NCBI GenBank assembly: GCA_022843945.1 | Contig: JALHMR010000034.1 | Coordinates: 1 to 56,863, forward strand | Reading direction: 5' to 3' | Source: Rhodospirillaceae bacterium | Lineage (GTDB): Bacteria; Pseudomonadota; Alphaproteobacteria; CACIAM-22H2 | Length of the DNA: 56,863 nucleotides | In this document: in pieces, positions 14,482 through 38,013 of the stretch | Layout of the letters: the number at the start of each line of letters is the position of its first letter | Numbering within the stretch: position 1 is the stretch's first letter | Notes under the pieces: generated by a model | Told to the model about the DNA's origin: nothing | Databases searched by the model: none | The model's input: only the letters and a program-made list of their open reading frames with translations | Position numbers and translations under genes: made by a program

Positions 14482-16023
14482 ATGGCGGCAGCAGCATCGT
14501 CTCAGGACGTGAAGTGGTGGGTGCCGGGTGACTGGAACGGCTTCTTCGGCCTGTTCACCAACGTGGTGCTCAACGTCATCGTGCTCACCGGCCTGTGCCT
14601 GGGCGTGGTGCAGCTGCCACCCGACATCGTCTTCGGCCGCATCCTGCCCGCACTCGGCATCGCGCTGCCGCTGGGCAACATCTACTACGCCTATCTCGCC
14701 TGGCGGCTGGCCAAGGAGACGGGGCGCACGGACGTCACGGCGATGCCTTACGGGCCGAGCGTGCCGCACATGTTCATCGTCGTCTTCCTGATCATGCTGC
14801 CGACCTACCTCAAGACCAAGGACCCGATCCTCGCCTGGCAGGCCGGCCTGGCCTGGTGCCTGATCATCGGCGTGATCGTGCTGCTCGGCGCCTTCGTCGG
14901 GCCGACGGTGCGCAAATACACGCCGCGCGCCGCCATGCTCGGCACCTTGGCCGGCATCTCCATCACCTTCATCTCCATGCGCCCGGCCTTCCAGATGTGG
15001 GAGCTGCCGTGGATCGCGTTCATCTCGCTGGGCATCGTGCTCATTGCCTGGACCGCCAATGTGCGCCTGCCCGGCGGCTTGCCCGGCGGCCTCGCCGCCG
15101 TGATCGTCGGCGCGGTGATCGCCTGGATCGCCACGGCGCTCGGCCTGACCGATTACATGAAGCCGGGCGCGGTCAGCGCCTCGTTCGACCAGTTCGGCAT
15201 CCGGCTGCCCACGCCCTCGGGCGACGTGCTGGCGGGCCTGGCCGACATCTGGCCGCTGCTGGTCACGGCCATCCCGCTCGGCATCTACAATTTCACCGAG
15301 GCGATGAACAACGTCGAAAGCGCCTCGGCGGCGGGCGACGATTACAGCCTGCGCAAGATCCTGATCGCCGACGGTGTCGGCGCGGTGGTTGGCGCGGCCC
15401 TCGGCAGCCCGTTCCCGCCGGCCGTCTATATCGGCCATCCCGGCTGGAAGCAGGTGGGCGGGCGCATCGGCTACTCGCTGGCCACCGGCATCGTCATCGC
15501 CCTGGTCTGCTTCCTCGGCCTGACGGCGCTGCTGCTCGCCGTCGTGCCGCTGGTCGCCATCCTGCCGATCCTGCTCTATATCGGCCTGGTGATCGGCGCG
15601 CAGGCCTTCCAGGCCTCGCCCTCGGCGCATGCGCCAGCTGTGGTGCTGGCGCTCGTCCCCAACATCGCCTCGTGGGCCCAGGTGAATATCGACGGGGCGC
15701 TGGCCGCCGCCGGCACCTCGGCGGGACAGGTCGGCCACGACAAGCTGATGGGCACGGGGGTCGTCTATCGCGGCATGGAGCTGCTGGGGGCGGGCGGCAT
15801 CCTGGCCGGCATGGTGCTCGGCGCCATCGCCGCCTATCTCATCGACCGCAACTTCCGCTATGCCGCGGCCTATGCGCTGGGCGGCGCCATTCTCTGCTTC
15901 TTCGGCATCATCCATGCGCCGCAGCTCGGCCTCAACGCCTCGCCGGGTGTCGCGCTAGGCTATCTGCTGCTGGCCGGCATCTGCTTCGGCGCCGGCATGA
16001 TCGAGGAGCGTGCGAAAGCGTAA
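14482..16023 (+). CDS. Xanthine/uracil-type (NCS2-like) permease
   Basis: 513 residues with about 12-14 hydrophobic spans. Segments such as VTAMPYGPSVPHMFIVVFLI, TAIPLGIYNFTEAMNNVESA and DGVGAVVGAALGSPFPPAVY follow the pattern of NCS2/AzgA-type nucleobase transporters, including the Q/E-rich helix that binds the base. It lies in the inner membrane and probably imports a ureide, purine or pyrimidine substrate for the hydrolase encoded just upstream. A Shine-Dalgarno (GGGGGGAACC) precedes the ATG. The substrate cannot be fixed from sequence. Confidence 0.85.
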   Translation: MAAAASSQDVKWWVPGDWNGFFGLFTNVVLNVIVLTGLCLGVVQLPPDIVFGRILPALGIALPLGNIYYAYLAWRLAKETGRTDVTAMPYGPSVPHMFIVVFLIMLPTYLKTKDPILAWQAGLAWCLIIGVIVLLGAFVGPTVRKYTPRAAMLGTLAGISITFISMRPAFQMWELPWIAFISLGIVLIAWTANVRLPGGLPGGLAAVIVGAVIAWIATALGLTDYMKPGAVSASFDQFGIRLPTPSGDVLAGLADIWPLLVTAIPLGIYNFTEAMNNVESASAAGDDYSLRKILIADGVGAVVGAALGSPFPPAVYIGHPGWKQVGGRIGYSLATGIVIALVCFLGLTALLLAVVPLVAILPILLYIGLVIGAQAFQASPSAHAPAVVLALVPNIASWAQVNIDGALAAAGTSAGQVGHDKLMGTGVVYRGMELLGAGGILAGMVLGAIAAYLIDRNFRYAAAYALGGAILCFFGIIHAPQLGLNASPGVALGYLLLAGICFGAGMIEERAKA

Positions 16024-16054
16024 GGCACGCGCGACAGTAATATCGGAAAAAATT

Positions 16055-16140
16055 GGCGCCCGCCCCGGGGGAGGTTAAGGGGCGGGCGCCGACGCGCTCG
16101 ATTCCGAGCGCGAGTTGTGCGGAGAGGGAGGAGTCCGCAC
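16055..16140 (-). terminator. Three tandem hairpins ending in an intrinsic terminator; loops carry CTCC motifs
   Basis: Between the convergent stops at 16023 and 16152 lie three perfect hairpins: stems 16117-16123/16134-16140 (7 bp), 16093-16100/16105-16112 (8 bp) and 16055-16066/16079-16090 (12 bp). Read on the minus strand, the last stem is followed by AATTTTTT, a classic Rho-independent terminator for the gene ending at 16152. Minus-strand loops are CTCCTCCCTC (first hairpin) and TTAACCTCCCCC (last), both complementary to Shine-Dalgarno sequence. Confidence 0.8.
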
Positions 16141-16151
16141 GATTCGATCTG

Positions 16152-16496
16152 TCAGGCCTCGGGACCCAGCGCCGCGACCTGCGGCAGCGCCTGCCATGAC
16201 TGACCGGTGGCCATCAGGCAGGACAATCCATTGGGCAGCGAGTAGAGCAGCGTCCATGTCGAGCCGTCGGCGCTGGCCAGGATTTCGTAGACCGCCGAGC
16301 CGTTCTCGGCGATGCCGACGGCAGCCGTCTGCTCCTTGAATTCAGTGGCCAGATGCTTCACGACCTCGGCGCGCGGACCGCAGGTCTTGTTCGCCTGGGC
16401 GGCAGCGATATTGATATCGGCGAAGCTGAAGGCCAGCGTCGCGACAGCGGCGAGGCTCGGCATCGCGAAGAGGCGCCTTGAACGCGTCGTAGCCAT
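16152..16496 (-). CDS. Small exported protein, unknown function
   Basis: 114 residues from the ATG at 16496, 4 bases after GGAGGA; the frame continues upstream, but without ribosome site. An N-terminal signal peptide is clear: MATTRSRRLFAMPSLAAVAT, then a hydrophobic stretch and a likely cut after AAA-QA. The mature part contains KTCGPRAEVVKHLATEFKEQ, ENGSAVYEILASADGSTWTL and a C-terminal LPNGLSCLMATGQSW. Two Cys could form a disulfide. The pattern resembles small periplasmic alphaproteobacterial proteins of unknown role. Its promoter region carries two tandem CCTAGGTA sites and its 3' end a triple hairpin. Confidence 0.82.
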   Translation of the reverse strand: MATTRSRRLFAMPSLAAVATLAFSFADINIAAAQANKTCGPRAEVVKHLATEFKEQTAAVGIAENGSAVYEILASADGSTWTLLYSLPNGLSCLMATGQSWQALPQVAALGPEA

Positions 16497-37881: not shown

Positions 37882-37903
37882 GCCGCATACCAAGAAGAAG
37901 TAC

Positions 37904-37998
37904 GGCCGTCCGCGAGGGTCGCGGACGGCCGCTGGAGGACGCGTCGCCGGGGGGAGGGGCGGCGCGCCCCGTTTCGGCCTGAGATGTCGTCCGCCTGC
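37904..37998 (-). terminator. Hairpin group downstream of the MCP-tail microprotein; C-rich loops
   Basis: Not quite evenly spaced on the minus strand after the stop at 38014: hairpins with arms 37991-37998/38004-38011 (8 bp, loop CCCCC), 37941-37948/37958-37965 (8 bp with one G-U, loop CCTCCCCCC) and 37904-37915/37919-37930 (12 bp perfect, 3-base loop). The last is followed by GTACTTCTTCTT on the minus strand, so it is probably the terminator. Confidence 0.65.
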
Positions 37999-38013
37999 GG
38001 GGGGCAGGCGGGG

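Follow-up and report, generated by a model that had tools for sequence, protein, structure and literature searches.

A three-hairpin RNA element behind a small exported-protein gene of a Rhodospirillaceae bacterium is a probable divergent relative of RusT-like small RNAs

RusT (CCNA_R0199) of Caulobacter crescentus is described, in the part of its report available to us, as a 118-nt Hfq-bound RNA encoded between lolA and xth, with four stem-loops of which the second carries a conserved targeting sequence and the last is the terminator; under NtrX repression and inducible by iron starvation, it reduces TonB receptors and OmpW (PMC11005374). The same part of that paper places its homologs in Caulobacteraceae only (PMC11005374), and a partial literature search returned no report of a class-wide RNA family at the lolA/xth locus. 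According to excerpts of the respective papers, all three loops of alpha-r14 RNAs contain CCUCCUCCC and NfeR1 is transcribed from a σ70 promoter of its own (PMC10746234, PMC7143759), while the CcsR RNAs, known as cuckoo RNAs, follow a DUF1127 gene (PMC10253847) and are reportedly released from the host transcript by RNase E (PMC3927594, PMC10253847). GsrN of Caulobacter, which we compared by description only, resembles these elements in the pairing of a C-rich loop with G-rich mRNA leaders, and differs in having a σEcfG promoter and in its link to the general-stress locus; it was dropped as a named relative because the excerpt places its homologs typically near that locus (PMC5869019). PmaR was likewise dropped, being reported, in the source material at hand, only from Agrobacterium and a close Rhizobium.

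The element described here lies in a 56,863-nt stretch of DNA (the window) from the 5.38-Mb genome of a Rhodospirillaceae bacterium, labeled G000; other genomes and loci are given G and L numbers where they must be told apart. On the minus strand, from 16154 to 16047, a stop codon and 11 nt are followed by three perfect hairpins, with stems of 7, 8, and 12 bp, and then by AATTTTTT. The features are as follows.

16154-16152, minus strand: stop codon TGA of the host gene, read from the sequence
16047..16146, minus strand: putative RusT-like three-hairpin RNA element, covariance-model match of 39.5 bits (model R2) and 43.0 bits (model R3), both models built without window sequence
16117..16140, minus strand: hairpin 1 (H1), 7 bp, Shine-Dalgarno (SD)-complementary loop CUCCUCCCUC, from sequence and predicted fold; GTGCGGA 16140-16134, loop CTCCTCCCTC 16133-16124, TCCGCAC 16123-16117
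16093..16112, minus strand: hairpin 2 (H2), 8 bp, loop GAAU without motif, from sequence and predicted fold; CGCGCTCG 16112-16105, GAAT, CGAGCGCG 16100-16093
16055..16090, minus strand: hairpin 3 (H3), 12-bp terminator stem, loop UUAACCUCCCCC, from sequence and predicted fold; GGCGCCCGCCCC 16090-16079, loop TTAACCTCCCCC 16078-16067, GGGGCGGGCGCC 16066-16055
16047..16054, minus strand: intrinsic-terminator tail AAUUUUUU (DNA AATTTTTT), read from the sequence
16152..16496, minus strand: host open reading frame (ORF), 114 amino acids from ATG (141 from an upstream TTG), with a signal-peptide-like N terminus by eye and GGAGG before the ATG
14482..16023, plus strand: convergent permease-like gene, context only, without Pfam match and with plasmid matches

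The predicted fold consists of exactly the three hairpins read by eye, and its energy of -59.4 kcal/mol compares with -36.3 ± 3.1 kcal/mol for shuffles (z = -7.5; none of 200 shuffles as good), confirming the three perfect hairpins and terminator that a previous, sequence-only reading had noticed after this minus-strand stop. The 11-nt spacing between stop codon and H1, together with the terminator H3 at the end of the gene, fits a small RNA derived from a 3' untranslated region (UTR). The same reading had proposed that the gene for a small exported protein is followed at once by a small-RNA-like element, and this is supported. Its description of the loops as anti-SD holds for loops 1 and 3, which are C-rich and SD complementary, but not for loop 2, and neither motif is the full CCUCCUCCC: loop 1 holds CUCCUCCC, which is 8 of the 9 letters of CCUCCUCCC and identical to the stretch in cuckoo RNAs, and loop 3 holds only CCUCCCCC. 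The sequence 5' of H1 is the end of the host coding region and also folds (-14.9 kcal/mol). By a simple consensus, the best σ70-like match upstream of the element scores 8/13, the commonest background value.

The host protein has no Pfam match and hence no DUF1127 domain, which bears out the earlier remark that the host is not the usual DUF1127 gene. Matches to it occur in 15 of 61 genomes (its own included) and, at E ≤ 1e-12, in 63 of 385 genomes of the class; the one named relative comes from a bin labeled "Alphaproteobacteria bacterium." G000 itself carries four copies of the host gene, three of them without the RNA element; in G001, a genome of the same genus, the host protein has no match. 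Linkage of the RNA to the host gene across genomes was rejected, since among 57 non-window loci with host homologs only L003 and L154 show CTCC at least twice together with a T-run within 140 nt past the stop, and both are unlisted with R3. At L003, the 3' end of a host homolog in another family, CCCUCCCCUCCC and CCCUCC stand ahead of a terminator. The gap that separates the host gene from the ABC permease gene holds a direct repeat CCTAGGTA (minus strand, 16602-16595 and 16588-16581, 14 nt apart), a possible regulator site. The convergent permease-like gene is 54% identical to its best plasmid match (Microvirga, no feature listed) and also matches a Methylobacterium plasmid; weaker plasmid matches are annotated as xanthine/uracil permeases.

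Compared with the alpha-r14 and NfeR1 RNAs as described in the excerpts available, the element shares the three hairpins, the anti-SD loops, and the variable stems, but those RNAs have CCUCCUCCC in all three loops, whereas the element has partial motifs in two loops and reaches 32.7 of the 58.8 bits required (PMC10746234, PMC7143759). With the CcsR RNAs it shares the position behind a small-protein gene and the C-rich loops (PMC3927594, PMC10253847); the DUF1127 host and the CCUCCUCCC loops of that family, as far as its descriptions go, are both absent here. At gathering thresholds (Rfam 15), the window has no Rfam match. Below them, ar14 (RF02344) matches the full length of the element with 32.7 bits (cut-off, 58.8; E = 5.2e-4), making it the best ar14 match in its own genome, followed by 6C with 28.4 bits (cut-off, 47) and CcsR1 (RF02791) with 19 bits (cut-off, 65.3). 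No ar14 match over the cut-off was found in 23 genomes of the family, or among the matches listed from 385 class genomes (the best 8 candidates per genome, with G000 itself unmatched). Seven DUF1127 matches over the cut-off are present in G000, all on other contigs, and none of these genes has a C-loop hairpin series, by eye, within 260 nt downstream. One DUF1127 gene, L249, has CCTCCCCCC right behind its stop codon and then a hairpin. With scores below threshold and the defining loops or host absent, ar14 and cuckoo/CcsR were rejected as the family of the element, and the cuckoo/CcsR assignment of the sequence-only reading was not upheld.

A different family emerged from the relatives. Subthreshold matches to ar14 and to R1, a covariance model built from the window element alone, turned up three-hairpin RNAs immediately upstream of xth (exonuclease III) at four loci, one of which is in G000 itself (G000:C46:6735-6822). 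Both xth-type proteins tested contain an Exo_endo_phos domain. The RNAs of G015 and G017, two of these four and two of the eleven behind model R2, first came via the window-built R1, so the discovery of the family depended in part on the window. Most of the 14 folded R1 matches look, by eye, like coding sequence matching around hairpin 2, and two others (L101 and L108) are xth-linked relatives. A search with the xth protein gave matches in 21 of 23 family genomes, and reading 330 nt upstream located the RNA at xth in 11 of 18 (G000, G001, G002, G003, G005, G007, G009, G014, G015, G016, and G017; the loci of G006, G011, and G019 are excluded from this count). Within those 330 nt it was absent in G004, G008, G012, G018, G020, G021, and G022. 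However, a copy in G004 adjoins lolA, so a genome without the RNA at xth may still have it elsewhere.

The stems of this family co-vary around a constant loop. In alignment A5 (11 sequences, 9 distinct), which leaves out hairpin 2 owing to an alignment shift there between two sequence groups, 9 of 19 pairs changed on both sides, and the covariation score of 0.370 compares with 0.170 for shuffled alignments (0 of 500 as high) and with at most 0.140 when partners were slid by 1 to 3 columns; the count of further pair types was not above shuffles. Pairing is kept in 100% of cells in hairpin 3 and in 81% in the two parts of hairpin 1. Alignment A6 (31 sequences, window included), which was fitted to the structure and consists of related sequences, has double changes in 15 of 19 pairs (124 cells) and a score of 0.610 against 0.206 shuffled (0 of 500), with slid controls at most 0.131. 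The loop core CCCC is constant in the family alignment and the stems vary. A C-loop RNA family with co-varying stems and a constant loop core is thus real, and the expected pattern of compensatory stem changes with constant C-loops is borne out at the level of the family, with a CCCC rather than a CTCC core. All family loci scanned (20 of 20, and 7 of 7 earlier) fall below Rfam 15 thresholds. The best Rfam match of the xth-linked copy is also ar14, at 29.9 bits, so the RusT-like and ar14 families may be distant kin.

Model R2, built from the 11 xth-upstream RNAs with the window excluded, gave matches at E ≤ 0.1 in 121 of 385 class genomes, where about 38 would be expected by chance if E-values were exact, and at E ≤ 1e-5 in 43 of 385, four of them in the window's family. 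These counts come from 11 scored candidates per genome (11 of 6601 for G000), and the window element is not among the R2 matches listed for G000 in this search. When the 30 best loci (L257-L286) were folded alone, 23 showed three hairpin loops, and all but L286 (29 of 30) show at least CCC in both the hairpin 1 and the hairpin 3 loop. The neighbors recur as well: the upstream ORF is a LolA gene at 6 of the 30 loci (all six Pfam confirmed) and a peptidase C26-like gene at 8 (one Pfam confirmed), and xth lies downstream at 9 (the L264 and C46 proteins confirmed, the rest assigned by motif or eye), so that at least one of the three adjoins 18 loci and none adjoins 12. At L264 and L080 the RNA is flanked by lolA on its upstream side and by xth on its downstream side. 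L080 was picked up in the ar14 search; since R2 gives it only 19.4 bits and R3 18.5 bits, it supports the locus, not the model. Outside the xth context, L041-L044 (in G005, G016, G009, and G017) form another three-hairpin RNA with poly-C loops, with R2 scores of 24.6 to 34.0 bits and R3 scores of 34.3 to 35.4 bits (L043 being unlisted with R3).

A σ70-like consensus of at least 9/13 precedes 23 of the 30 family loci, compared with 72 of 400 window segments of unmatched base composition. By a loose rule, a 5' stem-loop lies upstream of H1 in 30 of 30 loci; since the coding stretch in the window also folds, this count proves nothing. ATGC-N2..12-GCAT palindromes, a pattern chosen post hoc from the sequences themselves, occur within 170 nt upstream of 12 of the 30 RNAs (L259, L262, L263, L264, L269, L273, L275, L276, L278, L279, L282, and L283; N7 in 11 of the 12) and in 36 of 1181 background segments. 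These palindromes are a candidate operator; ATGC-N7-GCAT is absent from the window.

By analogy of locus and layout, rather than of sequence, the family is apparently akin to RusT. As far as the RusT report is accessible, both combine a terminator hairpin with poly-U and a conserved targeting loop, and many R2-family members adjoin lolA and/or xth, as RusT lies at the lolA-xth locus (PMC11005374). Counting the 5' stem-loop would also make the C-loop hairpin the second, like the RusT seed hairpin. In contrast to RusT as it is described there, the window copy has three hairpins instead of four and lies behind a small exported-protein gene, not at a lolA/xth locus.

Does the window element itself belong to this family? 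In 857 kb of its own genome, R2 scores it at 39.5 bits (E = 1.4e-7), where the only better match is the xth-linked copy and the next unrelated one reaches 12.9 bits; with filters off it is the top match in the window, the second having 16.1 bits. R3, built from the 30 loci with the window excluded, gives 43.0 bits (E = 2.1e-7 in 857 kb; next unrelated match, 15.2 bits), these E-values being rough by the search tool's own note. The element shares with the family the C-rich loops in H1 and H3 and a terminator H3 with GCGCCCG, a stem sequence common to most members; its loop 1 reads CUCCUCCCUC against the family's UCCCCUGA (UCCCCU), and its R2 score lies just under the lowest of the 30 loci (39.7 to 96.1 bits). 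Among the RNAs that the ar14 search yielded, others with three hairpins and C-loops attain up to 34.0 bits with R2 (setting aside the xth-linked L045) and 35.4 bits with R3; with the latter model, 12 of the 20 ar14-search loci score 18 to 35 bits, and the other 8 are unlisted or have chance-level matches only. As such RNAs score up to 35 bits, convergence between GC-rich C-loop hairpins is possible. By these sequence scores, the element is nearer to the RusT-like family than the ar14-search C-loop RNAs are, at the family's low edge. A covariance search of relatives, which the sequence-only reading had named as a check, thus ties the element to a family through models free of window sequence, but blastn and R1 returned nothing convincing as an ortholog of the window copy in 23 family genomes.

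The weight of C-rich loops also depends on how unusual they are in this genome. Within the window, CTCCTCC is not rare (10 found, 11.4 expected) and CCTCCC stays below expectation (18 found, 48.6 expected), so the loop letters are meaningful only by their place. As background, G000 was read as 40 stretches of 20 kb in two sets of 20. Across the whole sample, a second rule assigned a C-rich loop to 8 and a G-rich (mirror) loop to 6 of 92 terminator-like hairpins. The second 400 kb held CTCC, CCTC, or CCCC loops in 5 terminator-like hairpins and the mirror motif in 3 (one hairpin in both), and none of these had a second motif hairpin upstream. The window and first 400 kb, a sample biased by including the window and a contig chosen for its ar14 match, gave 6 C-rich against 4 mirror loops and 3 against 0 double structures; one of ten first-order Markov resamples of this sample contained double structures (two of them). 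A clear preference for C-rich loops among G000 terminators was therefore not borne out (8 versus 6 of 92; 5 versus 3 in the second set).

Some further sites in G000 have similar loops. CCTCCTCCC occurs 29 times in the genome and the reversed motif 45 times; in loops of stems of at least 7 bp, the former was found at 4 of 29 sites and the latter at 0 of 7 (800 kb). Two strong hairpins, of 12 bp at G000:C14:6386 and of 15 bp at G000:C23:7425, have CCTCCTCCC in the loop; the one at C14 is terminator-like and lies, by eye, behind a gene end. A second cluster in the window (37893-38011, minus strand) comprises three GC-rich hairpins with C-rich loop stretches and a weak T-rich tail, by eye behind the end of a chemoreceptor-type gene (R2, 16.1 bits with filters off). 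L287 (G000:C1:226330-226411, minus strand), which scores 25.9 bits with R2, has two C-loop hairpins and an eight-T run roughly 30 nt downstream of an open frame and is possibly another sibling RNA.

In the reading that we consider probable, the window element represents an additional, divergent RusT-like small RNA, which forms the 3' UTR of the small exported-protein gene and acts in trans through its C-rich loops. The host mRNA, or a transcript started inside the host gene, would be cleaved immediately downstream of the stop codon to give a stable RNA some 100 nt long, whose loops 1 and 3 would then pair, possibly with Hfq (an hfq gene is present in the genome), with G-rich ribosome-binding sites of other mRNAs; in the manner of Caulobacter RusT, this would make transporter or envelope genes less well translated. 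Action in trans on such sites is the most likely mode. Within the window, the ORFs starting at 14482 and 13765, with GGGGGG leaders, are predicted partners stronger than the host SD, on a simple duplex energy that is no proof of a target. Loop 1 could alternatively act in cis on that SD, or the C-loops could be a decoy or sponge that binds G-rich leaders, or else a second small RNA, and so relieves regulation. Pairing of loop 1 with the host SD region yields -10.5 kcal/mol (10-nt string), or -13.0 kcal/mol once the string is lengthened to take in stem bases. However, 8 of 35 window ORFs, with ORFs and starts chosen mechanically, score better than the host's -10.5 kcal/mol (median, -7.3), and we regard a decoy or cis role as very improbable.

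A simpler account would be an ordinary strong 3' UTR, with a terminator and two upstream hairpins that guard the mRNA from 3' decay and with C-loops owed to chance or to termination. The position directly behind the stop codon, the perfect terminator facing a convergent gene, the lack of a detected ortholog in the 23 family genomes, and the C-loops of some other terminator-like hairpins in G000 (those 8 of 92) would all fit. Yet such loops are barely commoner than their mirror and here occupy two of three loops, and the C-loop terminators L046 and L048 obtain R3 scores of only 8.8 and 7.9 bits (elsewhere in their loci), with L138 unlisted, against 43.0 bits for the element; this account thus appears rather unlikely. 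Improbable, in our view, is an anti-SD small RNA of the alpha-r14/cuckoo type (CcsR, NfeR1) in a new host-gene context. In its favor are ar14 as the best Rfam match of both the element and the xth-linked copy, the three hairpins, and the CUCCUCCC of loop 1, but the scores stay under the ar14 and CcsR1 cut-offs, loop 2 lacks the motif, loop 3 has only CCUCCCCC, and the host is without DUF1127. Two other loci, L071 and L072, come just below the ar14 cut-off of 58.8 (56.9 and 56.1 bits), each with a second match adjoining, and L071 follows, by eye, a DUF1127-like ORF. For these two loci, by ar14 score the closest to true ar14/cuckoo RNAs, R2 gives no more than 17.8 and 18.3 bits and R3 no more than 18.3 and 19.7 bits, so the RusT-like models are not cuckoo models; L075, whose upstream ORF is, like that of L071, DUF1127-like by eye, has 11.9 bits with R2.

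The probable assignment of the window element to the RusT-like family leads to a broader proposal, which we put forward tentatively: RusT may be the most familiar representative of a small-RNA family that spans the class, keeps its CCCC seed loop constant, and often sits at lolA or xth. An extra copy from this family would have been captured here as a 3' UTR beside an ABC transporter, so that an mRNA makes its own RusT-like regulator. The search that began with the window element also brought out a RusT-like family spread through the class, none of whose scanned loci reaches an Rfam threshold. If the proposal is true, a regulator that the accessible literature reports from one bacterial family would become a class-wide family with a list of testable loci, and a stand-alone small RNA would have been re-used as a 3' UTR, which would bear on the origin of 3'-derived small RNAs.
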